From positions 240,566-304,565 of the forward strand of contig NZ_CDDF01000011.1 of the NCBI RefSeq assembly GCF_000819865.1: a stretch of DNA of 64,000 nt, read 5' to 3'. A program made the translations under genes and the position numbers. This DNA comes from Aeromonas eucrenophila (lineage in GTDB: Bacteria; Pseudomonadota; Gammaproteobacteria; Enterobacterales; Aeromonadaceae). Below are positions 12,847-61,254 of the stretch, one piece after another. The number at the start of each line of letters is the position of its first letter. The first letter of the stretch is position 1. Below the pieces are notes generated by a model. The model saw nothing but the letters and a program-made list of their open reading frames with translations. It was not told where the DNA came from and did no database searches.

Positions 12847-12951
12847 TCAGCCCCCGCGGCAGGGCTTGAACATATCCAGTGCGCCGTCGTACACCTTGGT
12901 TTGTACATCCATGATGCCGAGCATGGTATGGATAACAACAGGTTGTCGCTG
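12847..12951 (-). pseudogene. Degenerate second copy of the eptA 3' end
   Basis: The last 25 codons plus stop of eptA are present again 120 bp downstream of the intact stop. Within the conserved 78 nt only three bases differ from the intact gene, and all three are silent (Ala GCA/GCG, Gln CAA/CAG, Asp GAT/GAC). Beyond MLGIMDVQTKVYDG the copy breaks down with a 5-nt length difference but shares CAGGTTGTCG again. The silent-only changes suggest a relic of a formerly functional, diverged eptA allele or paralogue rather than random decay of a fresh duplicate. The natural-looking terminator follows this copy, not the intact gene. Confidence 0.8.
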
Positions 12952-12966
12952 CGTATGAGCCATAGA

Positions 12967-14586
12967 TCAGCCCCCGCGGCAGGGCTTGAACATATCCAGC
13001 GCGCCGTCGTACACCTTGGTCTGTACGTCCATGATGCCGAGCATCGAGTGGAACAGGTTGTCGTGGGAGAAGCGCTTGGCAGCCGCCTCCTGGCGCAGGC
13101 AGTTCTGATCCAGCTGACGGTCGCTTTGCAACTGGGGGGAGAACCAGGTCAGCAGCGGTACCCGGGTCTGATCATCCGGCGCAAACTTGTAGGGGGTGCC
13201 GTGCAGATAGAGCCCCAAGGCCCCCAAGGATTCGCCGTGATCCGACAGATAGACCATCCCCACGTTGTACTGGCTCTCCAGGGTCTTGAGCTTGGCGATG
13301 AGCTGAGACAGCACCTTGTCGGTATAGCGGATGGTGTTGTCGTAGGTGTTGACCAGCTCCTCGTTGCTGCAGTTCTCGATGTCGCTGCGCGGACAGTCGG
13401 GGGTAAAGAAACGATCCTCTGCCGGATAGCGGCGATAGTAGGTCGGCCCATGGCTGCCCATCAGGTGGAAGGCGACCACCTTGTTCCCGCTCTTCATGTC
13501 GCTGATCTGCTGATCCAGCCCCTGCAACAGCACTTCGTCGTAGCAGGAGTCACCCTGGCAGTAGTCGGGGAACTGCTTGGGCTGGATCTCGATGGTGGGC
13601 ACGTTCTTGCACACCCCCTTGCAGCCGCCGTCATTCTCCTTCCACAACACGGAGACACCGGCGTGCTGCAGCACATCCAGCAGGCCATCTCGGGATTTGG
13701 CCACCGTTTCATCGTATTCATGGCGAGTCAGGTTGGAGAACATGCAGGGCACAGAGACCGCCGTGGCGGTGCCACAGGAGCGCACATCCTTGAACGAAAC
13801 CAGCTCCTGCTCCTTGCCGATGAAGCCGTTGGTCTCTTTCTGGTAGCCGTTGAGGGAGTAATTCTTGCTGCGCGCCGTCTCGCCTACCACCAGGAACATC
13901 AGGGTCGGCTTGTCGCTCTTGCTCACCACCTTGGCATCGGTACCGATCGGCTCGTAAGGGACGGGGGTGGCGAACACCACATCCCGGGCGTAGCGATAGA
14001 CTCCCCCGACATAGTTGGAAGGCACTATTTCTTTGAGCAGGCTGTGATTGTTGCGCCCGACCGAGGCGTAGTCCTGGTAATAGAGGGCGGCGACCCCGAA
14101 CAGGAACAGCAAGGAGAGCGCTATGCCCCCGAGGCGCAGGCCAAGCCCCTTGAGCCAGGAGCTCGGGTATTCAATCTTGATGAGCAACAGGCAGAGCACC
14201 GGCAGCACCGCGGTCAGCAGGAACCAGAGCATGATCGAAAGGTTGAGGTAGGAGGTCGCCTCCCCGCGGTTGGTCTCGATGACGTTTTGCATCATACCGG
14301 CATCGAAGATGATGCCGTATTTCAGCATCGCATAGCTGACGATGGAACCCGTCATGATCAGCAGGATGAAGAACGGCTTGAGCAGATACTTGAAGGTGAA
14401 GGGCAAGAAGACGGCATTGAGCGCCGCCATCAACACGAAGGGGATCGAGAGGGCGAAACCGGCTTTGACGTGTTCCAGATCGGTGAGAATACGGTAAAAG
14501 TGCAGGAAGATGGGCCAGTTGAAGACCAGTGCAAACAGCAGCACCAGCAACAGATTAACCTTCATCACTCCCAGAGTGAGACGCAT
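12967..14586 (-). CDS. eptA: Lipid A phosphoethanolamine transferase, MCR-3-like
   Basis: 539-aa inner-membrane enzyme with five predicted N-terminal transmembrane helices (about residues 10-170) and a periplasmic alkaline-phosphatase-fold domain. Active-site residues line up with the MCR/EptA family: E236 in GETAR, the nucleophile T275 in CGTATAVS, and D449-H450 in SDHGESLG. Long stretches (VGETARSKN, GTATAVSVPCMFSN, PDCPRSDIENC) match what I recall of MCR-3. It adds phosphoethanolamine to lipid A, lowering polymyxin binding. A GGAG site lies 7 nt from the ATG. No two-component genes are adjacent, so its control is not evident. It could be a silent or low-level chromosomal relative. Confidence 0.92.
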   Translation of the reverse strand: MRLTLGVMKVNLLLVLLFALVFNWPIFLHFYRILTDLEHVKAGFALSIPFVLMAALNAVFLPFTFKYLLKPFFILLIMTGSIVSYAMLKYGIIFDAGMMQNVIETNRGEATSYLNLSIMLWFLLTAVLPVLCLLLIKIEYPSSWLKGLGLRLGGIALSLLFLFGVAALYYQDYASVGRNNHSLLKEIVPSNYVGGVYRYARDVVFATPVPYEPIGTDAKVVSKSDKPTLMFLVVGETARSKNYSLNGYQKETNGFIGKEQELVSFKDVRSCGTATAVSVPCMFSNLTRHEYDETVAKSRDGLLDVLQHAGVSVLWKENDGGCKGVCKNVPTIEIQPKQFPDYCQGDSCYDEVLLQGLDQQISDMKSGNKVVAFHLMGSHGPTYYRRYPAEDRFFTPDCPRSDIENCSNEELVNTYDNTIRYTDKVLSQLIAKLKTLESQYNVGMVYLSDHGESLGALGLYLHGTPYKFAPDDQTRVPLLTWFSPQLQSDRQLDQNCLRQEAAAKRFSHDNLFHSMLGIMDVQTKVYDGALDMFKPCRGG

Positions 14587-14807
14587 AACAATACTCCGAC
14601 AAGCCAGTAGATCTTGAGGCCCTGCATGGGGGCTCAGTTTTGGGCATCCCAGTCACCTTTCTCTCATCCCGAGCAAACGAAAGGTGATGGGCACAGCGGC
14701 CCGGATACAGGGTGAGCATAAGAAGGCAAACTTAAGCGGGAATTAAGAGATGACCAAAAAAGGGATTGATTGAATCCCGATGACACTTTCAAGACAAAAA
14801 TAAGACA

Positions 14808-14838
14808 TAAAAAAACGGCAGCCCAGGGCTGCCGTTTG
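14808..14838. terminator. Terminator downstream of yebC
   Basis: A-run, stem ACGGCAGCC/GGCTGCCGT with a CAG loop. On the minus strand the A-run becomes the T-run. It lies past the degenerate yebC tail copy. Confidence 0.8.
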
Positions 14839-14900
14839 CATTCGTTTTATCCGCAGACTCGGTGCATCACAGGGATCCGCGCCTGCATGCGTCCCCTGAT

Positions 14901-14955
14901 TTAGAGGGTTGCTGCGACTTCGTCGGAGGTGATCTCGTTGTGATACCCCTCCTGC
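14901..14955 (-). pseudogene. Degenerate second copy of the yebC 3' end
   Basis: A 70-bp-period copy of the yebC end. It still reads YHN...SDEVAATL plus a TAA stop on the minus strand, with silent changes at the Thr (ACG/ACC), Ala (GCG/GCA) and Tyr (TAC/TAT) codons and a few replacements (GSI to EIT). About 20 nt after each stop also match (CATGCGC region). It looks like the tail of a diverged yebC allele placed directly behind the intact gene. Confidence 0.75.
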
Positions 14956-14970
14956 GCATGCGCTCCTGAC

Positions 14971-15711
14971 TTAGAGCGTTGCCGCGACTTCGTCGGAGAT
15001 GGAGCCGTTGTGGTACACCTCCTGCACGTCGTCCAGATCTTCGAGCATGTCGATGAGACGCATCAGCTTGGGGGCAGTCTCGGCATCCAGCTCGGCTTCG
15101 GTGGACGGGATCATGGTCACTTCGGCGTTCTCTGGCTTGAAGCCGGCGGCTTCCAGCGCATCCAGCACAGTGCCGAAATCGTTCGGAGTGGTGTACACCT
15201 CGATGGAGCCATCCTCTTCGGTGACTACGTCATCGGCACCGGCTTCCAGCGCCGCATCCATCAGGGCATCTTCATCCACACCGACGAAGGTCAACAGCCC
15301 TTTCTTGCTGAACAGGTAGGCCACGGAGCCGTCGGTGCCCAGGTTGCCGCCGCTCTTGCTGAAGGCATGACGCACTTCGGCCACGGTACGGTTACGGTTG
15401 TCGGTCAGGCACTCTACCATCACGGCGGAGCCAGCCGGGCCATAGCCTTCGTACACGATGGTTTCGAGCTGCTCGCCATCGCCACCACCGGCGCCACGCT
15501 GGATGGCGCGGTTGATGGTTTCGCGGGTCATGTTGCTGGTCAGGGCCGCCGTCACCGCCGCACGCAGACGCGGGTTGTTCGCCGGATCCGGATCGCCGAT
15601 GCGGGCCGAGGTGGTGATCTCGCGGATCAGCTTGGTGAAGATTTTACCGCGCTTGGCGTCTTGTGCCGCCTTGCGGTGCTTGATGTTGGCCCATTTGCTG
15701 TGACCTGCCAT
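14971..15711 (-). CDS. yebC: YebC/PmpR-family protein
   Basis: 246 aa, full length for the family, with the signature N-terminus [14 protein letters not shown] and the conserved YEGYGP...[15 protein letters not shown] core. Family members act as transcriptional regulators or, as shown for some, help ribosomes through stalling motifs; the role here is not fixed. It sits 73 nt behind aspS on the same strand, a widespread arrangement. A GC hairpin (15759-15776) in the gap may reduce read-through. Its own 3' end is repeated just downstream. Confidence 0.96.
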
Positions 15712-15758
15712 AAAAACTCTCCGTTATAATTTTAACTCGATGAGATAGTCTGATAATG

Positions 15759-15776
15759 CGGGCCGCAAGTGCGGCC
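15759..15776. repeat. Hairpin between aspS and yebC
   Basis: GGGCCGCA/TGCGGCCC inverted repeat with a 2-nt loop and no clear T-run on either side. A weak terminator or processing site in the aspS-yebC transcript. Confidence 0.45.
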
Positions 15777-15784
15777 CGTCTGGT

Positions 15785-17575
15785 TTATTCGGCGCCTTCG
15801 ACGTCCGCCTTGGCATCGGCCTTGGCGACGGTCGCAATGGCCAGCTCGGTCAGCTGGGCCTGGTTGGCAAAGCTCGGAGCGTCTGTCATCAGACAGGCGG
15901 CCGCGGTGGTTTTCGGGAAGGCAATCACGTCGCGGATGTTGTCGGTGCCGGTCAGCAGCATGCTCAGACGATCCAGACCGAAGGCCAGGCCGGCGTGCGG
16001 CGGGGTGCCGTATTTCAGCGCATCCAGCAGGAAGCCGAACTTCAGGCGCTGCTCGTCCGGGGTGATCCCCAGGATGTCGAACACGGTGGACTGCATCTCG
16101 CTGTTGTGGATACGGACAGAGCCGCCGCCCACTTCGTAACCGTTGATCACCATGTCGTAGGCGTTGGCGTAGGCACCCAGCGGGTTTGCCTTCAGCTCGT
16201 CCGGACCCAGGTTGCTCGGGGCGGTGAAGGGGTGGTGCATGGCCGCCAGGCCGCCTTCGCTGTCTTCCTCAAACATGGGGAAGTCGATGACCCACAGCGG
16301 TTTCCAGCACTGCTCCACCAGACCCAGATCGCGACCCACCTTCAGACGCAGGGCGCCGATGGCGTCACAGACGACCTTCTTGCTGTCGGCGCCGAAGAAG
16401 ATGATGTCACCATCGGCTGCGCCGGTGCGGGCCAGGATCTCGCGCACTATCTCGTCAGACAGGAACTTGGCGACCGGAGACTGCACGCCCTCGAGGCCGT
16501 TGGCTGCGGTGTTGACCTTCATCCAGGCCAGGCCCTTGGCACCGTAGATGCCGACAAACTTGGTATATTCGTCGATCTGCTTGCGAGACAGCTCGGCGCC
16601 GCCCGGGACTTTCAGGGCTGCCACACGGCCTTTGGGGTCGTTGGCCGGGCCGGCGAACACGGCGAACTCGACCGCGGTCAGCAGATCGGCCACGTCCACC
16701 AGCTCCATCGGCAGGCGCAGGTCCGGCTTGTCGGAGCCAAAGCGACGCATGGCTTCGTCGAAGGTCATCACCGGGAAGTTGCCCAGATCCACGGCCAGCA
16801 CGTGTTGCCACAGCTGGCGGATCATCTCTTCCATCAGCTCGCGCACCTGGGGTGCGGTCATGAAGGAGGTCTCCACGTCGATCTGGGTGAATTCAGGCTG
16901 ACGGTCGGCACGCAGGTCTTCGTCGCGGAAGCACTTGACGATCTGGTAGTAGCGATCGAAGCCGGACATCATCAGCAACTGCTTGAACAGCTGCGGGGAC
17001 TGCGGCAGGGCGTAGAACTTGCCCTTGTGAACACGGCTCGGCACCAGGTAGTCACGGGCCCCTTCCGGAGTGGCCTTGGTCAGCATAGGGGTCTCGATGT
17101 CGAGGAAGCCCTGCTCGTCCATGAAGCGGCGCACGAAGGCACTGGCCTTGGCACGGGTCTTCAGGTACTTGGCCATCTCGGGACGGCGCAGGTCCAGGTA
17201 GCGATACTTGAGGCTGATCTCTTCGCTGTTGACCTGGTTGAAGTCCAGCGGCAGCGGCTCGGCGCGGTTGATGATGGTCAACTCGTGGGCGAACACCTCG
17301 ATGGCGCCGGTGGCCATGTCGTTGTTGCGCTGGGACTCGGGGCGCGAGCGGACCACGCCGGTCACCTGAATGCAGAACTCACCGCGCAGTTCGGAGGCCA
17401 GGGCGAAGGCGTCCGGCTTGTCCGGATCGAAGAACACCTGCACGATCCCTTCCCGGTCGCGCATGTCGATAAAGATGAGACCGCCCAGGTCACGACGACG
17501 ATGGACCCAACCGCACAATGTAATGGTCTGCCCAGCATGGGCCTCATTGACCTGTCCGCAATAGATAGAGCGCAT
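15785..17575 (-). CDS. aspS: Aspartyl-tRNA synthetase
   Basis: 596 aa (E. coli AspS 590). An N-terminal OB-fold anticodon-binding domain ([20 protein letters not shown]) and a class II catalytic core with a GAD insertion. Motif 2 [18 protein letters not shown] and motif 3 [13 protein letters not shown] are intact. The start at 17575 gives the family N-terminus MRSIYCGQV and follows a GGAAGAAG ribosome-binding site; the frame is open further upstream, but that extension does not look like AspS. yebC follows on the same strand. Confidence 0.97.
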
Positions 17576-18017
17576 GGACTTCTTCCTTCGAAATTGTAGA
17601 GAGACGGTTTTGGGTCGCCGGGCACGACTGGCAAGCACCGCCTGTCTCACAGCTGGCCAGATCCTGCTTCTTACCCGGTTTGAAATCAATCTCGTACCCT
17701 TCGGCTCCTCTGAGCCGAAGATTTGCCGCCACGATTTGCCACCCATGTTGGCTCGACCTGCGTGACCGACAAGGGGTCAAAGAGCCGGAGCGAGGACATC
17801 GGCAAGCATCGTTGTTTAGCCAGTTCATGGCCGCCATCGTCGCCACCATAGGCGCACGACCCCATGAGGCACAACAAATTGGCAAACAAAAGGGTTGGCA
17901 TTATAGAGGAAAACCCCTATTTGGGTAAAATAGCCCGCAGCCTCCTTTGCCCTGTTTTTTCTTGTCCTGGCGCAAAAAGCAGAGCAAAACAAGATAAATC
18001 CGCCGACAGGAGTCGTG
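17576..18017. other. 442-bp divergent gap between aspS and yecE
   Basis: No gene was recognised. A perfect 9-bp hairpin (17699-17720, CTTCGGCTC arm, 4-nt loop) lies in the likely aspS leader. On the minus strand a TATAAT hexamer at about 17900-17905, with TTTACC 18 nt upstream, is a plausible aspS promoter, implying a leader of about 320 nt. Confidence 0.45.
17699..17720 (-). repeat. Perfect hairpin in the aspS leader
   Basis: CTTCGGCTC pairs with GAGCCGAAG around a 4-nt loop. No T-run follows, so it is not an obvious terminator. It is about 125 nt upstream of the aspS start codon. Confidence 0.5.
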
Positions 18018-18878
18018 ATGAGCCTCTATTTGGGTCTGCCGCAGTGGTCACATTCGGCCTGGCCCGGTCAGCTGTTGGGGGTCAATGCCAAGCCCGCCGA
18101 ACACCTCGCCCACTATGCCCAGGTGTTCAACACGGTGGAAGGCAACACCACCTTCTACGCCTCCCCGACGCCGGACACGGTGCAGCGCTGGGCCGATGCG
18201 GTGCCCGCCCACTTTCGCTTCAGCTTCAAGTTTCCGCAGACCATCAGCCACCAGAGCGATCTGGTGAGCGCAGGCAAGCTGGTGACAGACTTTATCCGCC
18301 TGCTGGCGCCGCTGCACGACAAGCTGGGGCTGCTCAAGCTGCAGCTGCCCGCCCGCTTCGGCCCCGCCGGCTTGCCGCGCCTTGCCACCTTCTTCGAGCG
18401 CCTGCCCGGGGAGTTCACCTATGCCCTCGAGGTGCGTCACCCCGATTTCTTCGCCAAGGGCGAGGCGGAGCGCGCCCTCAATCGGCTGCTGATGGCGCGC
18501 GGCATCAACCGCATCATGCTCGACAGCCGGCCGTTGTTCTCGGTGCCGGCCAGTACCGCAGCAAAGAGTGCCGCCATGATAGACGCTCAGGGCAAGAAAC
18601 CCAGGCTGCCGGTGCACCTGCTCGCCACCGCCAATGCCCCCGTGGTGCGCCTCATCGGCCTGCCGGATCCGGCTGCCAATCACCCCTTTCTGCCGCCCTG
18701 GCTGCCCCATTGGCAGCAGTGGCTGGCCGAGGGCAAGGATCTCTACCTCTTCATTCATAGCGCCGACAACGTGCAGGCACCGGAGCTGGCCCGCCAGGTG
18801 AGCCGTCTGCTCGGCCAGCAAATGGCCCCCTGGCCGGGGGAAAACGATCGCGCGCGCCAGGGCCTGCTGAACTTTTAG
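18018..18878 (+). CDS. yecE: DUF72 (YecE) protein
   Basis: 286 aa spanning one DUF72 TIM-barrel-like domain (N-terminal LGLPQWSHSAW, then FNTVEGNTTFYASP and FRFSFKFPQTISH). The biochemical role of the family is unknown. In E. coli yecE also lies near aspS and cmoAB, as here. ATG 18018 is preferred over GTG 18015 because it has better spacing from CAGGAG (18008-18013). Confidence 0.9.
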   Translation: MSLYLGLPQWSHSAWPGQLLGVNAKPAEHLAHYAQVFNTVEGNTTFYASPTPDTVQRWADAVPAHFRFSFKFPQTISHQSDLVSAGKLVTDFIRLLAPLHDKLGLLKLQLPARFGPAGLPRLATFFERLPGEFTYALEVRHPDFFAKGEAERALNRLLMARGINRIMLDSRPLFSVPASTAAKSAAMIDAQGKKPRLPVHLLATANAPVVRLIGLPDPAANHPFLPPWLPHWQQWLAEGKDLYLFIHSADNVQAPELARQVSRLLGQQMAPWPGENDRARQGLLNF

Positions 18879-20002
<1,124 letters not shown>

Positions 20003-20005
20003 GCC

Positions 20006-20983: not shown

Positions 20984-21035
20984 CCGATGGCGCCTGCGGA
21001 AGTTACACTGACCCAATTCCAGGAAGCACAGTTAA

Positions 21036-21824: not shown

Positions 21825-21827
21825 TCC

Positions 21828-40723: not shown

Positions 40724-40892
40724 GATGACTCCTCAACGCAATACAGGGTGAGAACCTGAGCCACTCACCCGCGTTTCTATGATGTTCGGTGGCGAGCCCG
40801 CTCCGCTTATGAGCGGGCGGAATCGCTTATGGGCGGATCAGCCGGCCTTCTGACGAACGAGTCGGCCCTCTATTGACGAACGAGTCGGCCCT
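40724..40892. other. 169-bp repeat-bearing spacer between bioC and bioD
   Basis: It contains two extra 23-bp copies of the bioC 3' end (40851-40896) and, further down, two diverged copies of a CGCTTATG-GCGG motif (about 40806-40837). No gene is seen. Confidence 0.6.
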
Positions 40893-40915
40893 CTATTGAC
40901 GAACGAGTCGTCCAA
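40851..40915. repeat. 23-bp tandem repeat made from the bioC 3' end
   Basis: TGACGAACGAGTCG recurs at 40851, 40874 and 40897 with an exact 23-bp period. The last of these is the true end of bioC (Leu-Val-Arg-Gln-stop on the minus strand), and the other two lie beyond the stop. The copies are essentially identical, pointing to recent slippage. Confidence 0.85.
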
Positions 40916-41711
40916 GGCAGACCTGGTAGCTGGCGGCCAGCAGGCCATCCGGCTGACGGAATTGCTCATAGGCCTCCTCCAGGCGCAGCAGGCGCTGACG
41001 ATTGCCAAGACCAGGCTGGCGTCCGTCGTTGAGCTGGCTGGCGCCTATGCCCTTGAGGTCCCGCAGCAGGCCGGTCAGCTCCGGGTAGGCGAGGGACCAG
41101 GTCTGGCACGCCAGTTCCGGGGCGGGGAAACCCCCGTCGCTGAGGGCGCGGCGCAATTGTGGCAGGCTGAGGAAGCGATTGACATGGGGACGCTCGTCAA
41201 CTGTGCGCCAGGCCTCACGCAACTGCCACAGGGAGTCCGAGAGCAGGGTCGAGAACAGCAGCTGGCCGCCGGGCTTGAGCACCCGATACAACTCGGCGAA
41301 GGCCTGGGCCGGCCGCTCGCACCACTGCAGGGCCAGGCTGGAGAAGACCCAGTCCAGGCTCTGGTCGGCGAAGGGCAACTGCTCCGCATCGCCGCACAGC
41401 AGCAGGGCGCCGCTGCCCCGTTGGGCCGCCTGCGCCAGCATGCCGGGGGCGAGATCCAGCCCGTGCAGCCGCTGGCAGCGATCAGCAAGGGCAGGCAGGA
41501 AGAAGCCGGTGCCGCAGCCAAGATCCAGACCCACTTCCGGCAAGGCACCAGTCAGAGGTGAGCCCGCCGACATCATGGCCAGCAGGGCCTGCCCTACCTC
41601 CTGTTGGAACTTGGCATGGGCGTCGTAGTGACGGGCGGCGGCGCCGAAGCGGCGCGCCAGCTGCACCTTGTCGACCCGCTGAAAGGCGTCCCGAGATTGA
41701 GGCTCATGCAT
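40893..41711 (-). CDS. bioC: Malonyl-ACP O-methyltransferase
   Basis: 272 aa. SAM-dependent methyltransferase that caps malonyl-ACP so the fatty acid machinery can build pimeloyl-ACP for biotin. SAM motif VGLDLGCGTGFFLP (about residues 58-71), then LHGLDLAPGML. ATG 41711 overlaps the bioF stop by 8 nt, so it is coupled to bioF. A longer upstream frame lies inside bioF and is rejected. The last codons are repeated downstream as a 23-bp tandem array. Confidence 0.94.
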   Translation of the reverse strand: MHEPQSRDAFQRVDKVQLARRFGAAARHYDAHAKFQQEVGQALLAMMSAGSPLTGALPEVGLDLGCGTGFFLPALADRCQRLHGLDLAPGMLAQAAQRGSGALLLCGDAEQLPFADQSLDWVFSSLALQWCERPAQAFAELYRVLKPGGQLLFSTLLSDSLWQLREAWRTVDERPHVNRFLSLPQLRRALSDGGFPAPELACQTWSLAYPELTGLLRDLKGIGASQLNDGRQPGLGNRQRLLRLEEAYEQFRQPDGLLAASYQVCLGRLVRQ

Positions 41712-51293: not shown

Positions 51294-51298
51294 ATTTT

Positions 51299-52753: not shown

Positions 52754-52790
52754 CGCGCTTTCACACCCATCGGCATTACTGATGCCACTC

Positions 52791-52826
52791 AACAGGCCTC
52801 CGTTTGCGGGGCCTGTTGTCTTTCTG
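52791..52826 (+). terminator. Terminator after dcuB
   Basis: AACAGGCC/GGCCTGTT stem, 11-nt loop, then TCTTTCT. Confidence 0.75.
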
Positions 52827-52909
52827 CCCTCTGCGCCCGCCCTACGGATTTTGCCAAGGCCCCCTTGGGCGGGTAGCATGCCTCCCTCTTTCCCTTCTGG
52901 AATCACACC

Positions 52910-53581
52910 ATGTCTCGCGTCATCGCACTCTGGAGCGGCGGCAAGGATGCCATGCAGGCGCTCTGCCATGCCCGCGATCAGGGCCATCAGGTGGTGGCTC
53001 TGGTCACCTTCGCTCCGCCCAACCCCAGCTTCCTCGCCCATCCCCTGCCGCTGGTGCGGCGCCAGGCGGAGGCCCTGGGCCTGCCCCACCGGCTGGTCAC
53101 CATAGAGGCCCCGTTCGAGCAGAGTTACGAGCAGGCGCTGGCCGACTTGCGGCAGGAGTGGCAGATCGAGGGGGTGGTCACCGGCGACATCGACAGCGTG
53201 GCCGGGGCACCTAACTGGATCCGCGAGCGCTGCCGCCCGCTCGGCCTCGCCGTCCATACCCCGCTCTGGCAGCAAACTCGCGTGGCGCTGCTGGCGGATC
53301 TGCTGGCCCGCGGCATCAAGGCCCACCTCTCCTGCGTCGATACCAGGGTGCTGACCCCGGACTGGGTGGGACGGGCGCTGGACGCCGCCACCCTGGCCGA
53401 ATTGCAGGCGCTGGCGGCGCGGCAGGGTTTCGATGCCTGCGGCGAGCAGGGGGAGTACCACAGCATGGTGACCGACGGGCCAGGGTTTGCGGCGCCCCTC
53501 CCCCTCAGCGGCTGGCGGGTAGCGCGGCAGGATCACCTCGCCTATCTGGCGGAAGATGGCGAGAGCCATCTAGTCAGTTAG
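52910..53581 (+). CDS. PP-loop ATPase, diphthine-ammonia-ligase-like family
   Basis: 223 aa, single domain of the adenine-nucleotide alpha-hydrolase superfamily. The PP-loop is LWSGGKDAMQALCHA at the N-terminus; VTGDIDSVAG and GEQGEYHSMVTDGP near the end are the family signature (MJ0570/DUF71, related to the eukaryotic diphthamide amidase). Bacteria lack diphthamide, so the true substrate is unknown. The gene stands alone, and its last codons are repeated downstream in a tandem array. Confidence 0.88.
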   Translation: MSRVIALWSGGKDAMQALCHARDQGHQVVALVTFAPPNPSFLAHPLPLVRRQAEALGLPHRLVTIEAPFEQSYEQALADLRQEWQIEGVVTGDIDSVAGAPNWIRERCRPLGLAVHTPLWQQTRVALLADLLARGIKAHLSCVDTRVLTPDWVGRALDAATLAELQALAARQGFDACGEQGEYHSMVTDGPGFAAPLPLSGWRVARQDHLAYLAEDGESHLVS

Positions 53582-53719
53582 ACATTAATCAGTTAGGCAT
53601 TAATCAGTTAGGCGCTAGCCATCTAGTCAGTTAGGCATTAGTCAGTGAGGCGTTAGCCATCTAGTCAGTTAGGCATTAGTCAGTGAGGCGTTAGCCATCT
53701 GATCAGTTAGGGCTGCGCC
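53565..53719 (+). repeat. Tandem repeat made from the 3' end of the PP-loop ATPase gene
   Basis: Units begin GCCATCTAGTCAGTTAG at 53565 (in the gene, containing its stop), 53618 and 53656, with a diverged one at 53694; periods are 53, 38 and 38 bp. The first interval holds a nested 15-bp repeat (CATTAATCAGTTAGG). Every unit repeats the Ser-His-Leu-Val-Ser-stop coding end. Confidence 0.88.
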
Positions 53720-53735
53720 AGACCATCCAATTTCC

Positions 53736-53766
53736 ATAAAAAACGGGAGGCCTGGGCCTCCCGTTT
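53736..53766 (-). terminator. Terminator of the dcuC-M20 peptidase transcript
   Basis: ACGGGAGGCC/GGCCTCCCGT stem with a TG loop; on the minus strand six T residues follow. It lies 21 nt past the peptidase stop. Confidence 0.85.
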
Positions 53767-53787
53767 GCACTGCTTTTATTCGATATG

Positions 53788-54927
53788 TCAGCGTGCCAGC
53801 TTGGTCAGCACCCGCTTAAGCAGACGAATGCGCGGCGCTATGCTGTCCAGCAGCAGGAACTCGCTCTGTGAGTGGAAGCCACCCCCCATGGGGCCGAAGC
53901 CGTCCAGCGACGGCACCCCGGCCGCGGCGGTGAAGTTCGCATCCGAGCCGCCACCGGCCTCCAGCCAGTTGAAGGGGATCCCCTCCTCCGCCGCCGCGTC
54001 CTCCACCAGCCTCATCAGCCCCTGAGTGTCCTCGTTGGGGCGCATCGCCGGCTTGAAGGTCTGGCGCTCCACCTCGACCCGGCAACCGCGTAGGAAGGGG
54101 TTGTTGGCCATGAAGCCGAGCCGCTCGTGCACGGCGGCGGCCTCGTCGTTGCTCCAGAAGCGCAGATCGACGATGGCCTCGGCGAAGTCCGGCACCACAT
54201 TGACCCCTGTGCCCCCCTGCACTACCCCCACGTTCATGGTGGTACCCGTCTCCAGGTTCACCTGCTCGTTGATGGCCAGCACCCAATTCGCGAGTTCTGT
54301 GATGGCGGAGATCCCCTCGGCCAGGGCCGAGCCCGCGTGGGACGCCTTGCCGTGGAAGCGGATGCGGTACTTGGCGTTGCCCTTGCGGGCGCTGATGAGA
54401 TCCCCGCTCGGGCGGGCCGCCTCGGCCACCAGCACGCAGCCGCTCTGCTTGGCCTTCTCCACCAGCCACTCCTTGGACCAGGGGGAGCCAATCTCCTCGT
54501 CGCAGTTGCAGCAGACCAGCACCCGGAGCTTGGCCAGCACCGCCGGATCCAGGGCCTTGAGGGCATACCAGGTGGAGAGCAGACCGCTCTTCATGTCCGA
54601 GACGCCGGGGCCGAAGGCCTGATCGCCCTCCACCTTGAGCGGCCGTTTGGCGGCAGTCCCCTCCGGGAATACCGTATCCATGTGGCCCACCAGCATGACG
54701 TCATAGTGGCTGGCGCCGGGGGCATTGGTGATCTCGAGGCAGGGGCCGCACTCATCGGCGAACTGGTGGCGCACCACCTGCCAGCCGATGGCCTCATATT
54801 TTTCGGTCATGATGTCGGCCACTTTGGCCACCCCGGCCGGGGTACGGGTGCCGCAATCGAGGTTGATCAGCGGGGCGAGATCCGCCAGGTAGGTATCGAG
54901 GGAAAAGCCGTTAAGTGAGTCTGTCAT
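53788..54927 (-). CDS. M20-family peptidase (glutamate carboxypeptidase type)
   Basis: 379 aa, an M20 zinc exopeptidase with a catalytic domain split by a lid domain. Metal-ligand motifs are visible: VGHMDTVFPEG, GVSDMKSG, CNCDEEIGS and a C-terminal His in GGFHSQSEF. The CPG2-like layout suggests release of C-terminal glutamate or similar amino acids. There is no signal peptide, so it is cytosolic. The start at 54927 is chosen because GGAG lies 6 nt upstream; other in-frame ATGs at 54930-54939 overlap that site. It follows dcuC by 85 nt on the same strand. Confidence 0.88.
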   Translation of the reverse strand: MTDSLNGFSLDTYLADLAPLINLDCGTRTPAGVAKVADIMTEKYEAIGWQVVRHQFADECGPCLEITNAPGASHYDVMLVGHMDTVFPEGTAAKRPLKVEGDQAFGPGVSDMKSGLLSTWYALKALDPAVLAKLRVLVCCNCDEEIGSPWSKEWLVEKAKQSGCVLVAEAARPSGDLISARKGNAKYRIRFHGKASHAGSALAEGISAITELANWVLAINEQVNLETGTTMNVGVVQGGTGVNVVPDFAEAIVDLRFWSNDEAAAVHERLGFMANNPFLRGCRVEVERQTFKPAMRPNEDTQGLMRLVEDAAAEEGIPFNWLEAGGGSDANFTAAAGVPSLDGFGPMGGGFHSQSEFLLLDSIAPRIRLLKRVLTKLAR

Positions 54928-55012
54928 CATCATCTCCATGTCGTGGGAAGGCAGGCCTCCCATCCAATAGCCGAGTGAAAAGAGCGGACGGCCCGGGCCA
55001 TCCGCCAGCTGA

Positions 55013-56389
55013 TTACATAAACAGCAGGTAGTTGAGTGCCAATGCGGTCACCAGGGCGCCCGCCATGGGCACGCTGGTGCGTTTCACCACCACGAAGGGA
55101 GAGACCTTGGCGATGCCGGCGCAGGCGATGAGCACGGCGGCGATGGGGGAGATGCTGCGGCCGATACTGGAGGCGAGCTGCATGGGCAGCAACATGGTCA
55201 CCGCCGGCACCCCGAACTTGGCCGCCACCGCGGGGGCCAAGGTGGAGAAGCTCAGGAAGGCGGCGTTGCCGGAGCCCATGATGACCGCGGCCACCATGAT
55301 GAGGCCCACCATCACCAGCGTCATCAGGCCGCTGCCGATGCCGGCGTTGCTGGCGGAGTGGAGCAGGGTGTCGATGGCGCCGATGGCCTTGAGGGATTCC
55401 GCAAACAGTTCGGCGCAGACAATGAGCGCCACGACGGGGCCGAACACCTTGCCCATGCCGTCGAGGAAGCTCGACAGTCCGGCCATGGCGGTGCGCACCG
55501 AGCGGCTACGCAGCAGCTCGCACAGCATGCCGATGAACACCGACAGCAGCATGGCCACCTCCACGCTCATCTTGATGTCGTCCTCCAAGAGCTTCGAGAA
55601 GGTCATCATCAGCACGAAGGGGATGATGGGCAGCAGGGCATACCAGGTCGGCGCCTTCACCTCGTCCGTCCCCTGCTCGTCGAGCTCCGCGTGATCGCCA
55701 CGGTGCAGGGCGGGATCCCAGCCATCCTGGCGATCGCAGTGCCGCTGCCAGAAGAAGTGCAGCACCATGGTCACCAGCAGCATGGGGGCCACCAGCCAGA
55801 TCTGGTAATCCACGAAGTAGCTGGTCGGATCCAGGCCGGACTGGCCGGCGGAGAAGATGGCGTTGGTCTGGGTCGGGCCAATCTCGAACGCCTGGGAGGT
55901 GGCGATGACGCCACAGGCGGAGGCCGAGCTGATGCCGAGGTTGCGCATCACAGGGTACATGGTGACCATCAGCAGCAGACCGAGGCCGGTGGCCGAGGTG
56001 ACGAACAGGGAGACGAACACCGCCACCAGGTAACAGATCGCCAGCATCAGGTAGCTGGACTGGATGCCCGCCACCGGCTTGACCGCCACCCGCACCAGGG
56101 CCTGGGAGGCGCCGATGTGGGACATGTAAGTCGCAAAGCCCGCCACCGCCATGATGGTGAGGCCAAGCCCCGCCGCTCGGTAAGAGAAGATCCCCTTGAA
56201 CACCTCGAACAGGTCGAACAGGGCGAAGCCGGTGCTCTTGTCGGCGGGCAGTATGGGGTGCAGACCCAGCCAGTAGGCCAGGGTGAAGAGGCTCATCCCC
56301 GCCAGCGCCAGCACGGCCTGCGGGTTGTAGTCCTTGACGATGCCGTAGATCACGGCCATCAGCACGAACGAGACGAATAAGAGTTCCAA
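55013..56389 (-). CDS. dcuC: Anaerobic C4-dicarboxylate carrier DcuC
   Basis: 458 aa (E. coli DcuC 461), about twelve transmembrane helices. Family landmarks include GFATYMSHIGASQALVRVA, SLFVTSATGLGLLLMVT and AVIMGSGNAAFLSF. It exports succinate during fermentation or exchanges dicarboxylates. A consensus FNR box lies 60 bp upstream of its start codon, pointing to anaerobic induction. The M20 peptidase downstream suggests dicarboxylate or amino-dicarboxylate metabolism as the common theme. Confidence 0.92.
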   Translation of the reverse strand: MELLFVSFVLMAVIYGIVKDYNPQAVLALAGMSLFTLAYWLGLHPILPADKSTGFALFDLFEVFKGIFSYRAAGLGLTIMAVAGFATYMSHIGASQALVRVAVKPVAGIQSSYLMLAICYLVAVFVSLFVTSATGLGLLLMVTMYPVMRNLGISSASACGVIATSQAFEIGPTQTNAIFSAGQSGLDPTSYFVDYQIWLVAPMLLVTMVLHFFWQRHCDRQDGWDPALHRGDHAELDEQGTDEVKAPTWYALLPIIPFVLMMTFSKLLEDDIKMSVEVAMLLSVFIGMLCELLRSRSVRTAMAGLSSFLDGMGKVFGPVVALIVCAELFAESLKAIGAIDTLLHSASNAGIGSGLMTLVMVGLIMVAAVIMGSGNAAFLSFSTLAPAVAAKFGVPAVTMLLPMQLASSIGRSISPIAAVLIACAGIAKVSPFVVVKRTSVPMAGALVTALALNYLLFM

Positions 56390-56673
56390 AATGCGCTCCT
56401 GTTAAGATATCGAGGGGCGGAATCTAGTGGCCGATCCCGTCTTCTCCCTTGATCCCCATCAATAAAGATGGATTGGATGCACATTTAAAGAATAAAACAC
56501 CAACTAAATCACAAAAATCAGTCGTTAAATTTGACGTCAGCGCATTAAGATCCAGTTGCATAGCGTCAGGCCCCGCAACCTCCACTTTTTTTGCTCTGGA
56601 TCAACGTCCGTTGGGGGTGAACTGGCCAAGATGCCCGTCGACACAAGGCGACCATTTCGCACCGGAGAGAGTT
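56390..56673. other. Divergent gap between dcuC and the 104-aa gene
   Basis: It holds the FNR box and an AT-rich stretch (56455-56540) that should contain both promoters. No gene was recognised. Confidence 0.5.
56449..56462. promoter_or_regulatory. Consensus FNR box upstream of dcuC
   Basis: TTGATCCCCATCAA matches TTGAT-N4-ATCAA exactly. Centred at 56455.5, 66 bp upstream of the dcuC start; an activating class II position (-41.5) would put transcription start about 25 nt before the ATG. Confidence 0.78.
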
Positions 56674-56988
56674 ATGACAAACCAGGCCACCGCAGAGAGC
56701 ATCCACTGCGACTACAAGCTGTGGGACATCCTCATCGAGTCTGCAAAGGAGCGCACCACCATTCGTTACTCCAAGCTGGCCAAGCAGGCCGGGCTGGAGG
56801 GCAGCCAGGACGAGCTGCGCACCCTGCTGCAACGCATCCGTATGTACTGCACCGAACACGAGCTGCCCACCCTCTCCGCCATCGTCGTGGATGACGTGGG
56901 CAAGTACGCCGGCCTCTCCTCCAGCCTGCCAAACGCCCCCTGGGAGCGTGCCCGGGTATTCGATTACCAGTGGCCTCTCTCGCCATAA
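56674..56988 (+). CDS. Conserved hypothetical protein, 104 aa
   Basis: Family not named. The N-terminal part (YKLWDILIESAKERTTIRYSK) looks helical, followed by a short helical segment and LPTLSAIVVDDVGKYAG. This pattern (a YxxLA-type helix, a lone Cys, then sALVV and a Gly turn) recalls small domains seen near restriction or repair genes, but that is weak. GAGAG precedes the ATG at 56674; an open frame extends upstream through the promoter region. Its 3' end is duplicated beyond the AT-rich insertion. Confidence 0.78.
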   Translation: MTNQATAESIHCDYKLWDILIESAKERTTIRYSKLAKQAGLEGSQDELRTLLQRIRMYCTEHELPTLSAIVVDDVGKYAGLSSSLPNAPWERARVFDYQWPLSP

Positions 56989-57244
56989 GCCCAGATCTCA
57001 GGGAAAAACACTACAAAACGCGCCACTCGGCGCGTTTTCTGTTTCCGGGCGGCCTATGGCTGGTCGGACTGGTGGCAGAAAAAGCCCGGCAACGGGGCGC
57101 CGCCGTTGCCATCGCGGGATCGGGATCGGGATCGGGATGCCAGAATCGGGCCTTCGCGTGATATCGCGCCTTTGCATTTCGGGCCCAGGCCCAGCGATTA
57201 AAGATCCCCATGGCCACCACCCTCTATGGCATCAAGAACTGCGA
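56871..57244. repeat. Left copy of long direct repeat (374 bp)
   Basis: Runs from the last third of the 104-aa gene, through its terminator, to codon 12 of a broken yffB copy. The right copy is 58658-59019. They differ by a 12-bp length change (two extra GGGATC units here) and about a dozen substitutions by eye. Between them lies AT-rich DNA of 1413 bp. Confidence 0.93.
57014..57042 (+). terminator. Terminator after the 104-aa gene
   Basis: AAAACGCGCC/GGCGCGTTTT hairpin followed by CTGTTT. The same terminator is present in the right repeat copy at 58799-58827. Confidence 0.82.
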
Positions 57245-57269
57245 GACGTTAATGATGGAAGGACCATGA
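57210..57269 (+). pseudogene. 5' fragment of yffB left of the insertion
   Basis: The first 11 codons match yffB (MATTLYGIKNC). The frame then enters the inserted DNA and ends at a TGA after 19 codons. A duplicate start left by the insertion event; the intact gene is at 58985. Confidence 0.85.
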
Positions 57270-57307
57270 ATAATAGGCTGAGTAGCCATAGCCACCAATT
57301 AGAACAG

Positions 57308-57964
57308 TCAACGTTTACTCTTTGGGTCCATTTTCCAGCACACATATGTTCTGATAACCCATTCTAAATAAACCCACTGCAATATGTCAGATAGGCCTAG
57401 TGTACCATGACGCCAATAAATTTTGAATCCCATCAAGTCAATACCTGAGTAAGGAATCTCTATAATTCCTTGCGGCTCTTCAGGGTAGTAGAAATAAAGA
57501 AAATTACCAATTATGTCTGAAAAAACAGCGAACCAAGGTTTGAAGCTCAATTTTTCAGGAAAGAGATCTGGAATTGGGGGATACGCAGGTAAACGCTTCC
57601 ACCCTCTAGAATGTCTACTCGCGAGACTATTCAATAAAAAATTTCTTGCATTTGGTACATAGCCATTACCTGCATCGAGCATTACAGGTACGACTCTAGA
57701 TATGGCATCAGGGATCAGCTCACCATGCCTCCAATCCCTGTCTGAATTTTGGGTTTTTAACTGCTCTGCATTGGGATTCAGATAGCTTAAACTTCCTTTC
57801 AGATAATCAGGAGTAACGGTACTACAACCTTGAGATATGTATTTTATAAATAATTCTTCAACCTCGACCGCACTTATTTTTTCATTTTCCCTGCGACCAT
57901 CACCGTTAGTAATGGCAGCCTGTACTATATCGATAGCTAGAACTATAGCACTCACATCTGACAT
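57308..57964 (-). CDS. Hypothetical protein of AT-rich island, 218 aa
   Basis: Not recognised. Soluble-looking, no signal peptide. The N-terminal half is helical (SAIVLAIDIVQAAITNGDG), the C-terminal half aromatic-rich (NFLYFYYPEEPQG, WVYLEWVIRTYVCW). GGAG lies 5 nt upstream of the ATG, supporting translation. Low-GC codon use unlike the neighbouring genes points to transfer. It follows the Rap1a/Tai-like gene by 123 nt on the same strand. Confidence 0.7.
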   Translation of the reverse strand: MSDVSAIVLAIDIVQAAITNGDGRRENEKISAVEVEELFIKYISQGCSTVTPDYLKGSLSYLNPNAEQLKTQNSDRDWRHGELIPDAISRVVPVMLDAGNGYVPNARNFLLNSLASRHSRGWKRLPAYPPIPDLFPEKLSFKPWFAVFSDIIGNFLYFYYPEEPQGIIEIPYSGIDLMGFKIYWRHGTLGLSDILQWVYLEWVIRTYVCWKMDPKSKR

Positions 57965-58087
57965 AGCTACTCCATCAGCTATATGTATGAAGAATGTAGA
58001 AGCTAATCATAACCCTATCCTTAATACTCAATAAACCATTAAAGAACGACTACATGAATGTTTGATTTCATCAATCCTTTAGTCCCA

Positions 58088-58432
58088 CTAAAGTTTTTGT
58101 AAATAGTTTTTGCAACCATATTTTTCATATAACGCCATGGCAGCTCCTTCGGATGCAAAAGCATACCCTTTATCCCCCTTAAATTTCGTCCACCCTAAAA
58201 ATGTTTCCTTCAATTCTTGAAAGCTATAGATTTTACGTGGAGGGCTCATACAGGTTGAATTTTCATAAATACCTGTCAAAAAGCCATGACAGAAGGCCTG
58301 CTCATCAGCCTCTCCACTACACCATTTCTCAAGATCTGTTGTTAAAATGGCATGATTATCTACATCATATTTAGCTAGTGTTGAATTTTGCCCCATCAAT
58401 AACAGCACGATAGCAACGAAGAATGATTTCAT
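58088..58432 (-). CDS. Small secreted protein resembling Rap1a/Tai immunity proteins
   Basis: 114 aa with a signal peptide (MKSFFVAIVLLLMGQNSTLA, about 20 residues) and a mature domain with four cysteines: WCSG, FCHGFLTGIYE, CMSPP and YGCKNYL. The order C...CxGFLxGI...C.P...AL...C is that of the Rap1a/Tai family of periplasmic immunity proteins that block type VI amidase effectors. The match is by pattern only. GGAG lies 9 nt upstream of the ATG. No effector gene is present in the window, so it would be an orphan immunity gene. Confidence 0.6.
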   Translation of the reverse strand: MKSFFVAIVLLLMGQNSTLAKYDVDNHAILTTDLEKWCSGEADEQAFCHGFLTGIYENSTCMSPPRKIYSFQELKETFLGWTKFKGDKGYAFASEGAAMALYEKYGCKNYLQKL

Positions 58433-58657
58433 TGTTCATTACTCCACATTAACCCCTAAGAAGGGGGGCGTAAGCATGCTCTCTTTTTACTCTATCTAGT
58501 CGCTATAATACGATGAGCACTTGAAAGACTAATACCCGTCGTTTAGCCACCGATACCTTCGTTATACCTTGCGAAAGCAAGTCTAGCATTTCTTGCTGCT
58601 TATCCATCACCATCGGCTTACAACTCTTATAGACCTTTTGTGCTTTGCCAAAGAGAT

Positions 58658-58775
58658 CCTCTCCGCCATCGTGGTGGATGACGTGGGCAAGTACGCCGGC
58701 CTCTCCTCCAGCCTGCCGGGCGCCCCCTGGGAGCGTGCCCGGGTATTCGATTACCAGTGGCCTCTCTCGCCATAA
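58658..58775 (+). pseudogene. 3' fragment of the 104-aa gene right of the insertion
   Basis: Encodes the last 38 residues of the 104-aa protein with one visible replacement (PNAP to PGAP) and a silent GTC/GTG change, but no start of its own. It joins directly to AT-rich insert sequence. Confidence 0.85.
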
Positions 58776-59019
58776 GCCCGGATCTCAGAGACAAACCCTA
58801 CAAAACGCGCCACCTGGCGCGTTTTCTGTTTCCGGGCGGCCTCTGGCTGGTCGGACTGGTGGCAGAAAAAGCCCGGCAACGGGGCGCCGCCGTTGCCATC
58901 GCGGGATCGGGATGCCAGAATCGGGCCTTCGCGTGATATCGCGCCTTTGCATTTCGGGCCCAGGCCCAGCGATTAAGGATCCCCATGGCCACCACCCTCT
59001 ATGGCATCAAGAACTGCGA
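58658..59019. repeat. Right copy of long direct repeat (362 bp)
   Basis: Counterpart of 56871-57244. It includes a headless 3' fragment of the 104-aa gene (to the stop at 58773-58775), a second copy of the terminator and the intact yffB start. Confidence 0.93.
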
Positions 59020-59335
59020 CACCATCAAGAAGGCCCGCAAGTGGCTGGACGAGACCGGCGTCGACTACCGTTTTCACGATCACAGGGCCGACGGCCTGGA
59101 TCCCGCCCAGCTGGATCTGTGGCTGGAGCGCCTCGGCTGGGAAGCCCTGCTCAACACCCGCGGCACCACCTTTCGCGCCCTGCCGGATGAAGACAAGCAG
59201 GGGCTCGACAACGGCAAGGCCCGCGCCCTGCTGCTGGCCCAGCCCGCCATGATCAAGCGCCCGCTGCTGGACAAGGACGGCGAGCTGCACCTGGGCTTCA
59301 AGGCCGATCACTATCAATCCCTCTTCTCTCGTTAA
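58985..59335 (+). CDS. yffB: ArsC/Spx-family thioredoxin-fold protein YffB
   Basis: 116 aa (E. coli YffB 118). Thioredoxin-like fold of the ArsC/Spx family with the single N-terminal cysteine C11 in YGIKNCDTIKKARKWL and the later LLAQPAMIKRPLL motif with the conserved Arg and cis-Pro. Its function in vivo is unknown; glutathione-dependent reductase activity has been suggested. Here as in E. coli it sits directly before dapE (22-nt gap). The start is intact despite the duplication just upstream. Confidence 0.93.
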   Translation: MATTLYGIKNCDTIKKARKWLDETGVDYRFHDHRADGLDPAQLDLWLERLGWEALLNTRGTTFRALPDEDKQGLDNGKARALLLAQPAMIKRPLLDKDGELHLGFKADHYQSLFSR

Positions 59336-59357
59336 ACTTTTCGCTTAAGGAACGCCG

Positions 59358-60485
59358 ATGTCGGATGTCATCGCACTGGCCAAGGATCTGATCCGCCGCC
59401 CCTCAGTTACCCCCCTGGACGAGGGGTGCCAGACCCTGATGGCGGCGCGCCTCGAGCGTCTGGGCTTCGTCATCGAACCCATGGTGTTCGAGGACACCAC
59501 CAACCTCTGGGCCCGTCGTGGCACCCAAGGTCCGCTGTTCTGCTTCGCCGGTCACACCGACGTGGTGCCGGCCGGGCCGCTGGACAAGTGGCACACCCCG
59601 CCGTTCGAGCCGACCATCCTGGACGGCATGCTGTACGGCCGTGGCGCCGCCGACATGAAGGGATCCCTGGCCGCCATGGTGGTGGCCACCGAACGCTTCG
59701 TGACTGCCAACCCGGATCACTCAGGCTCCATCGCCTTCCTCATCACCTCGGATGAAGAGGGCCCCTTTATCAACGGTACCGTCCGGGTGATAGAGACGCT
59801 GGAGGCGAGAGACGAGAAGATCCGCTGGTGCATCGTCGGCGAGCCCTCCTCCACCGCCCTGGTGGGGGACGTGGTGAAGAACGGCCGACGCGGCTCCATC
59901 ACCGGGGATCTGGTGGTGCGCGGGGTGCAGGGCCACGTGGCCTACCCCCATCTGGCGGACAACCCCATCCACCGTGCGGCCCCCGCCCTGGATGAGCTGG
60001 CCAGCACCGTCTGGGATCAGGGCAACGCCTACTTCCCCCCCACCAGCTTCCAGATAGCGAACATCCAGGCCGGCACCGGTGCCTCCAACGTGATCCCCGG
60101 CGAGTTGCACGTGCAGTTCAACTTCCGCTTCAGCACCGAGCTCACCGATCAGGCGATCCGCGAGCAGGTCGAGGCCCTGCTGACCCGTCACGGGCTGGAT
60201 TTTGAGATCAAGTGGACCCTCTCCGGCCAGCCCTTCCTGACCGACACCGGCGAGCTGCTGGCGGCGGCCGTGGGGGCCATCGAATCCGTCAACGGCCAGC
60301 AACCGGCCCTGCTCACCACGGGCGGCACCTCCGATGGGCGCTTCATCGCCCCCACCGGCGCCGAGGTGATCGAGCTGGGTCCGGTCAACGCCACCATTCA
60401 CAAGGTGAACGAGTGCGTGAAGGCCCAGGACCTCGATCTGCTGGCGGACATGTACCAAGGGGTGCTGGAGCGGTTGCTGGCATGA
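59358..60485 (+). CDS. dapE: Succinyl-diaminopimelate desuccinylase
   Basis: 375 aa (E. coli DapE 375). Dizinc hydrolase in lysine and diaminopimelate synthesis. Metal motifs [33 protein letters not shown] and [11 protein letters not shown] are all present. It starts 22 nt after yffB, and its stop overlaps the next start by 4 nt. Confidence 0.97.
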
Positions 60486-61171
60486 CCCAGGATCAGCTGC
60501 TCGGGCTGGACGACAGCCACCTCATCCTGGTGGGGCGCGGCCCCCACCGCCTGACCGCCGCCACCGCGGCGGCCTTCAACGACATGCAGGTAGCCGCCGC
60601 CCATGAGGGGCACAACCTGCAGGCCGCCTCCAGCTGGCGCGGCTTCGAGCGCCAGCTCGCCATCTGGAATGGCAAGTGGCGCGGCGAGCGCCCATTGCTG
60701 GACGCCAACAACCAGCCGCTGGATGCGCTGCAGCTGACAGAAACCGAGCGGCTGCACGCCATCCTGCGCTGGAGCGCCCTGCCCGGCACCAGTCGCCACC
60801 ACTGGGGCACGGATCTCGACATCTACGATCCCGACTGCCTGCCCACGGGCACCAAGCTGGCGCTGGAGCCCTGGGAGTACGAGGAGGGAGGCTGGTTCGG
60901 CGAGCTGAGCGCCTGGCTCGGGGATCACATGAACGACTTCGGCTTCTTCCTGCCCTATGCCCAGCTGAGTGGCGCAGGCAGCGGGGTCGCCTACGAGCCC
61001 TGGCACCTCAGCTTCGCCCTGGAGTCCGCCGATCAGCGGCTGGATCCCGATGCGCTGGCGCTTTGCCTGCAACAGGCGGATATTGAAGGCAAGGCGTGCA
61101 TACTGGCCCATCTGGACGAGATCCTGGCCCGTTACGTCACCCCCTGTCTCGACACGAGGCATCACTTATGA
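60482..61171 (+). CDS. M15-family D-Ala-D-Ala carboxypeptidase-like protein
   Basis: 229 aa. An M15/VanY-like zinc peptidase domain: [13 protein letters not shown] carries the His and Asp metal ligands, and YEPWHLSF near the end supplies the third His. There is no signal peptide, so a cytosolic muropeptide-recycling role is more likely than cell-wall work. ATG 60482 overlaps the dapE stop (ATGA). A small ORF starts at its stop codon and resembles its own C-terminus. Confidence 0.88.
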
Positions 61172-61254
61172 AGATGGGGCATATTGACCGGCTCGACGAG
61201 CTCCTGAGCCGTTATGACGTCAACGCCGGTCGCACAGAAAGGAGAAAACCATGA
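61168..61254 (+). CDS. 28-aa ORF, duplicated tail of the M15 peptidase
   Basis: Starts at ATG overlapping the M15 stop (ATGA, 61168-61171) and ends in a TGA overlapping the DUF2897 start (ATGA, 61251-61254). Its middle, HIDRLDELLSRYDV, resembles the M15 C-terminal [10 protein letters not shown], so the segment appears to be a diverged copy of the preceding gene end, about 80 bp apart. Whether it makes a functional peptide or only couples translation is unknown. Confidence 0.5.
   Translation: MKMGHIDRLDELLSRYDVNAGRTERRKP

Follow-up and report, generated by a model that had tools for sequence, protein, structure and literature searches.

Extra copies of gene 3' ends behind intact genes in Aeromonas genomes

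In a stretch of 64,000 nucleotides from Aeromonas eucrenophila (the window: bases 240566-304565 of contig NZ_CDDF01000011.1, labelled C11, of a 4.54 Mb genome labelled G000), several intact genes are followed directly by an additional copy of their own last codons and stop codon, here called a tail copy. The pattern is specific to gene 3' ends and, within the sample studied, to Aeromonas, where about 1 in 60 of the sampled genes carries an extra copy of its own end. The copies have a characteristic structure and a patchy distribution among species, those of eptA have in several genomes a common altered start, and the differences between copies and genes are in excess silent. The best reading, to which we give about an even chance, is that small tandem duplications occur at gene ends, are exactly reversible, and pass from one strain or species to another through homologous recombination. 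Nothing on this pattern was found among the matches listed in a literature search, outside which subscription papers mostly fell.

Frequency and specificity of tail copies

The tail scan compared the last 150 bp of each gene, as delimited by a home-made gene caller, with the next 400 bp, and a score of at least 50 was counted as positive; as a control, gene starts (heads) were compared with the 400 bp upstream at the same cut-off. Tail copies were found for 20 of 1156 Aeromonas genes and for none of 854 genes from other taxa (Fisher p=2.7e-5, one spurious antisense open reading frame (ORF) having been dropped); because genes are not wholly independent draws, the Fisher p values are only a guide. 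The Aeromonas cases come from the window (2/55, eptA and yebC), the rest of its contig (8/369), genome G014 (7/352, one of them the antisense artefact dropped later) and five further genomes of the genus (4/381). Outside the genus, no tail copy was detected in another genus of the same family (0/289), twenty other genomes of the order (0/330), two genomes of the class (0/66) or E. coli K-12 (0/169); against the same family alone, the Aeromonas excess has p=0.02.

Heads gave 1 match among 1156 Aeromonas genes after one ORF that is itself a tail copy had been dropped (3' versus 5' ends, p=1.9e-5). The matches in the window's own contig (2/369) are that ORF and one head overlapping the tail of the preceding gene; all other groups had none. 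Shuffled tails gave 0/424 for the window and its contig and 0 in every group. Random internal windows produced 0 or 1 match per group in the main scan and, in another draw, 1/244 in the own genome and 3/212 in G014. Chance is thus rejected by the shuffles, the head control and the cross-genus controls, the matches in random internal windows being few, yet not zero. A preliminary description of the window had held that several such cases in 64 kb exceed chance, which these counts bear out, and had set beforehand, as its own refuting test, the comparison of 3'-tail copies with duplications at 5' ends or random positions and with other genomes; run on samples, that comparison left the claim standing.

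An unbiased scan for proximal direct repeats led to the same picture. Clusters spanning a stop codon numbered 22, plus 5 mixed ones, in 1.264 Mb of Aeromonas DNA versus 1 in 1.0 Mb of controls; judged by their neighbourhood, four of the mixed clusters lie at stops and one at a start. Start-spanning clusters (2 versus 2), intergenic-only clusters (8 versus 16) and clusters within genes (10 versus 8) showed no such difference. Since intergenic and in-gene repeats are not raised, the excess sits at gene 3' ends, and a general repeat surplus in Aeromonas was rejected.

Tail copies in the window

The two positives of the window both lie on the minus strand. Because tail queries end at the stop codon by design, the limits of repeats were taken from a self-comparison of the window and from the unbiased scan.

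12967-14586, minus strand: eptA-like gene, whose tail 12967-13063 is the repeated part
12847-12948, minus strand: extra eptA tail copy, ending on the last base of the stop codon in the self-comparison
12795-12826, minus strand: terminator-like hairpin with a T run, read by eye
14971-15711, minus strand: yebC-like gene
14885-14955, minus strand: extra yebC tail copy in tandem, with a period of 70-71 bp, repeating 14956-15025 at 83%

The eptA copy covers the last 97 bp of the gene, with 91 of 102 aligned positions equal, and is separated from the eptA stop by an 18-bp spacer. Its last 78 bp differ from the gene by 3 silent changes, and its 5' part is altered. The hairpin stands behind the copy, not behind the gene, and the order is similar in relatives.

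Three further genes score below 50 in the window (bioC 37, PP-loop 38, M15 28).

40851-40910, minus strand: end of a bioC-like gene (40893-41711) as exact 23-bp units, 2.6 copies
53558-53711, plus strand: array of 15-, 23- and 38-bp units with the last codons and stop of a PP-loop ATPase gene (PF01902, 52910-53581)
61178-61231 (limits approximate), plus strand: decayed tail copy of an M15/VanY peptidase gene (PF02557, 60482-61171)

In the PP-loop gene the main array (53577-53711) consists of 3.6 copies of the 38-bp unit, which encloses the inner 15- and 23-bp units. The M15 copy is weak, with a strict score of 28 and a soft score of 45, either of which was reached by 0 of 1000 shuffles. All five genes for which the preliminary description had claimed tail copies (eptA, yebC, bioC, PP-loop and M15) do have them, bioC and PP-loop as arrays and M15 in decayed form; the identity of the bioC copies and the 23- and 38-bp periods given there were likewise recovered.

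A sixth case, reported there as a larger version with cargo at the 104-amino-acid (104-aa) gene starting at 56674, is confirmed by the self-comparison as a 377-bp repeat of 93% identity around AT-rich DNA; its copy is too distant for the tail scan.

56871-57247, plus strand: first copy of the 377-bp stretch, comprising the tail of the 104-aa gene, intergenic DNA and the start of an ArsC-like gene
57248-58657, no strand: AT-rich cargo of about 1.4 kb
57308-57964, minus strand: cargo ORF with no Pfam match
58088-58432, minus strand: cargo ORF weakly matching a Rap1a-type immunity family, short of the Pfam cut-off
58658-59022, plus strand: the 377-bp stretch again, as its second copy, continuing into the intact ArsC-like gene (58985-59335)

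The DNA upstream of the ArsC-like gene varies by species, with inserts that contain a LysR-like ORF or consist of AT-rich DNA (L267, L264, L282). G004 and G025 possess another ORF, LysR-like by eye, between the 104-aa and ArsC-like genes; in G003 AT-rich DNA precedes the ArsC-like gene, and the 104-aa gene is not seen within 1.5 kb. A locus resembling the 104-aa case lies elsewhere on the contig (C11:73710-78881, equal to L036:13710-18881): about 2.9 kb of cargo with a gene for a beta-barrel-like protein stands between two convergent genes, both of whose ends are repeated (92 bp at 99% and 200 bp at 91.5%).

Tail copies across the genus

Orthologous loci were compared within a group of 37 genomes that the search takes as one genus, one per species, including Aeromonas aquatica, media, caviae, salmonicida, veronii, dhakensis, sobria and others, with the deep-branching members G009, G027 and G029 left out of the sample; here copies were counted at a score of at least 40. 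They are present at 9/30 eptA, 8/31 yebC, 7/24 zupT-like, 6/30 fliP (one beside a run of N) and 5/29 flhB loci. A clear copy stands at the corresponding site in 5/30 M15 orthologues, with up to 78 of 95 positions matching. PP-loop orthologues reach the threshold in 0/28, and short arrays scoring 31-38 occur in 5/28, including the genome of the window; bioC was assessed from the window alone. A further search for close eptA loci in named Aeromonas genomes found a copy in 6/27, whose species largely overlap those of the 30 loci, so that this is no new sample. No tail copy was found at 26 eptA-like loci outside Aeromonas, a gene-matched control, or at 20 eptA-like loci that are more distant yet belong to the family.

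The layout is the gene, its stop, a spacer, the tail copy, and lastly the DNA by which the gene is directly followed in relatives lacking a copy; in fliP this joint leads into fliQ. When the 40 bp behind the copy are compared with the three nearest relatives without a copy, similarity to one of them is at least 0.80 in 6/6 fliP and 7/9 eptA loci; for the 40 bp behind the gene it does not exceed 0.60 at these loci. Spacers are mostly shorter than 60 bp, and some loci are arrays of three tails. Among 38 loci with spacers of at least 10 bp, 14 have a spacer that resembles the DNA following the copy (p<=0.03), the rest being short or diverged; such likeness is expected if the unit is a tandem one that reaches past the stop. 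In 4/38 loci the spacer resembles the part of the gene that precedes the tail. In six events from the unbiased scan (eptA, L033, L034, L037, L045 and L140) the repeat ends on the final base of the stop codon or one past it.

Seven genomes from both main branches of the tree have eptA copies with a common altered start (CTGTTGCCCCGCACC-like) and a 3-bp insertion, and in their remaining part these copies track functional alleles. On a 26-genome tree, the presence of the eptA copy requires 7 changes for 8 carriers; shuffled labels require 7.0 on average, and 316 of 500 shuffles are as low. The corresponding figures are 3 changes for 5 carriers in zupT, 5 for 6 in yebC, 4 for 6 in fliP and 5 for 6 in M15, the last set including two carriers detected with soft scoring only. 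A common altered eptA start combined with so patchy an occurrence suggests that copies were lost repeatedly, passed between species, or both, and such losses could be traceless because the two tails can recombine with each other.

In several species (for example at L254, L232 and L231) the yebC copies seem, by eye, to have lineage-specific stems in the 5' half, as if quasi-palindromes had been perfected. In some species the eptA stop, or that of the copy, is immediately followed by a palindrome (L013:3255-3280, L021:3129-3154), which looks like a repetitive extragenic palindromic (REP) element. As a driver of the copies it was rejected, the exact pattern occurring at 2 of 254 loci. Additional in-frame stops as a function of the copies were also rejected, the periods listed not being generally multiples of three.

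Divergence between copies and genes

For copies compared with their own genes, the ratio of nonsynonymous to silent divergence (dN/dS) is 0.23 when 48 pairs are pooled; an earlier set of 42 pairs gave 0.22, with 0.16 for eptA, 0.17 for zupT and 0.46 for yebC. In the simulations of plain decay, a tandem duplication left the copy neutral and the gene under constraint; three mutation models were used, with 40 runs each. Mean dN/dS was 0.46, 0.35 and 0.30 with rising transition and AT bias, and 0/40 runs per model reached 0.23. Taken singly, zupT lies below all simulated runs, while yebC and flhB (0.35) are compatible with plain decay. Between genomes, copies have a ratio of nonsynonymous to silent polymorphism (pN/pS) of 0.18-0.42 versus 0.01-0.17 for genes at the same codons, hence the copies are relaxed, not free. 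Pooled, the copies differ from their own genes too silently for simple decay, which is indicated rather than final. The simplest account is that much of the divergence arose while the sequence was functional, as allele exchange would supply.

Compared with the nearest relative without a copy, the gene is the closer sequence in 20 of 33 loci and the copy in 10, with 3 ties. The last copy is closer to the gene of another species than to its own in 18 of the 33 loci, with 4 ties, a count biased upward by taking the best of about 23-30 others. One example is zupT of G017, whose last copy has 0.95 similarity to the gene of G002 and 0.82 to its own. For eptA, the own gene is the closest sequence for 8 of 10 copies.

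Origin of the copies

According to the reading that we prefer, the duplicated unit would have a period of about 50-280 bp, start within the last 50-200 bp of the gene and end at the stop or some tens of bases past it. The reading frame would stay complete, and the old tail, its stop and the downstream signals would end up behind the gene as the copy. Slippage during replication, or end-joining where short repeats occur, may give rise to such units, and recombination between both tails could remove them without trace. Ordinary homologous recombination in or behind the gene would pass copies between strains and species, or overwrite them with functional alleles; this exchange would keep many copies allele-like, not junk, and their distribution patchy. 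The fliP unit seems, by eye, to start at an internal GGATGATG, which also forms the end of the gene; the TGA of the gene may therefore derive from the joint.

Several results weigh against this preference. The DNA behind the copy has a similarity of at least 0.80 to a relative without a copy at only 1/7 yebC, 0/7 zupT and 0/4 flhB loci, so that the layout, clear at the fliP and eptA loci given above, is not clear for these genes. In G024 it is the DNA behind the yebC gene that better matches the relative without a copy (0.90), and over 33 loci the downstream match to the nearest relative favours the copy side in 18 and is better or tied on the gene side in 15. Short words shared at the stop junction were seen at two loci, fliP and eptA, by eye only. 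In the simulation with the strongest transition and AT bias, the lowest run has a dN/dS of 0.24, close to the observed 0.23, and for eptA alone some runs under the stronger biases reach the observed 0.16. Few very young copies were seen that would speak for formation at present. Furthermore, slippage alone accounts neither for the restriction to the genus nor for the unraised intergenic and in-gene repeats.

The pattern could go back to a process specific to Aeromonas that duplicates the 3' ends of genes. Such duplications would act as small recombining loci, arising at stop codons, travelling between species together with the gene end, being renewed from functional alleles, now and then enclosing cargo between both tails, and disappearing again through exact reversal; we put this forward as a tentative proposal, and a rather doubtful one.

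Integration of incoming alleles beside native tails was one of the two explanations offered in the preliminary description. When DNA from other Aeromonas strains is taken up, a donor gene end would pair with its resident counterpart; the non-homologous end of the donor would be joined illegitimately upstream of the resident tail, leaving a donor tail and a little donor downstream DNA before the native one. The excess of silent differences agrees with this model, as do the copies that are nearer to genes of other species, such as the zupT copy of G017 and, in the window's own genome, the flhB copy, whose similarity to the gene of G032 is 0.88 (0.80 for the gene). In 3 of the 6 genomes with a fliP copy, and for eptA in G022 and G023, the gene ends in TGA and the copy in TAA; TAA is the stop of several, not all, relatives without a copy (in fliP they have TAA, TAG or TGA). 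The cargo case, moreover, requires added DNA. However, the TGA at the fliP joint could stem from the duplicated unit itself, the gene more often than the copy is closest to the nearest relative without a copy, and eptA copies are mostly nearest to their own gene. By eye among 30 loci, no carrier's eptA spacer was found behind the eptA stop of genomes without a copy. As a general explanation this model is unlikely and insufficient alone; some loci probably do owe something to imported alleles.

The other explanation offered there was tandem duplication that is simply tolerated at 3' ends, where the gene stays intact, and then decays. The spacers related to downstream DNA, the three-tail arrays and the two junctions seen by eye speak for duplication, and the dN/dS of yebC and flhB for decay. 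Tolerance alone, acting as a filter of selection, can produce the 3' bias, since a duplication at that end does not disrupt the frame. It cannot give the restriction to the genus, though; the pooled dN/dS is too low, copies follow functional alleles, and the six repeats of the unbiased scan end at the stop or one base past it. Duplication thus survives as a part of the explanation, and neutral decay as the whole of it appears improbable.

A role of the copies in the 3' untranslated RNA, for instance as a protective hairpin before the terminator, is quite improbable. The yebC copies of several species look, by eye, better paired than the gene; nevertheless, folding scores are z=-1.7 for the yebC copy of the window and z=+0.8 for its eptA copy, the presence of the eptA copy is no less patchy than shuffled labels, and a copy also stands inside an operon, fliP-fliQ. 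Scars of site-specifically integrated elements that rebuild the gene end, suggested by the two cargo cases (that of the window at 56871-59022 and C11:73710-78881, where the ends of both convergent genes are repeated), are very improbable indeed, as many unrelated genes are involved, spacers are mostly short, and no integrase matched in the two cargo ORFs of the window (other cargo was not fully scanned).

Comparison with known systems and significance

Short tandem duplications by replication slippage between short repeats are expected anywhere in a genome. The copies described here resemble them in their tandem units, in arrays of two to three units and in possible microhomology at two joints; they differ in being concentrated at gene 3' ends, confined to one genus of those sampled, and diverged in an allele-like manner.

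Homology-facilitated illegitimate recombination is described, in the available portion of PMC3240628, for the integration of small linear DNA and for conjugation in E. coli. One homologous and one illegitimate joint of this kind could set a donor tail before a native tail; unlike there, no donor DNA was identified here, and that portion of the paper is not about a genome-wide pattern of gene tails. In pneumococcus, merodiploidy arises through natural transformation as a partial duplication of the chromosome (PMC3784515, from the text at hand); transformation as a source of duplication is a shared trait, the extent is not, since no duplication of about 100 bp of a gene end is involved. The tpsC cassettes of Neisseria stand behind tpsA, and in the accessible part of PMC3848433 a role in antigenic variation or toxin immunity is examined for this one gene. 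As in Aeromonas, pieces related to the 3' end of a gene are located behind it and can recombine with it. In contrast to them, the Aeromonas copies encode the same end (dN/dS 0.22 in the 42 pairs) and lie behind many housekeeping genes; cassettes with different protein ends were not encountered.

Aeromonas genomes may thus record a little-noticed way in which DNA at the ends of genes is duplicated and exchanged. If the pattern held in complete sets of strains, it would provide a natural record of harmless small duplications in which the gene itself serves as reference, and which would allow formation, reversal and exchange between species to be measured. It would also offer a simple route for new DNA, as in the cargo cases, to settle next to core genes without breaking them. 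The question posed is what sets Aeromonas apart from its closest relatives.

Further observations

Loss of SbcCD as a cause of the copies was rejected, SbcD being above the cut-off in 12/12 genomes (7 Aeromonas genomes and 5 from outside the genus). The main match to the SbcD family in the window's own genome (G000:C5:272899-273890) is split in two pieces about 220 bp apart, while it is a single piece in the other eleven genomes. Away from gene ends, the window contains an intergenic direct repeat at 18982-19119 with a spacing of 57-58 bp and two to three units. At L043:13006-13223, an 88-bp intergenic stretch of the same contig is repeated exactly, 130 bp apart, and is among the few very young duplications seen.

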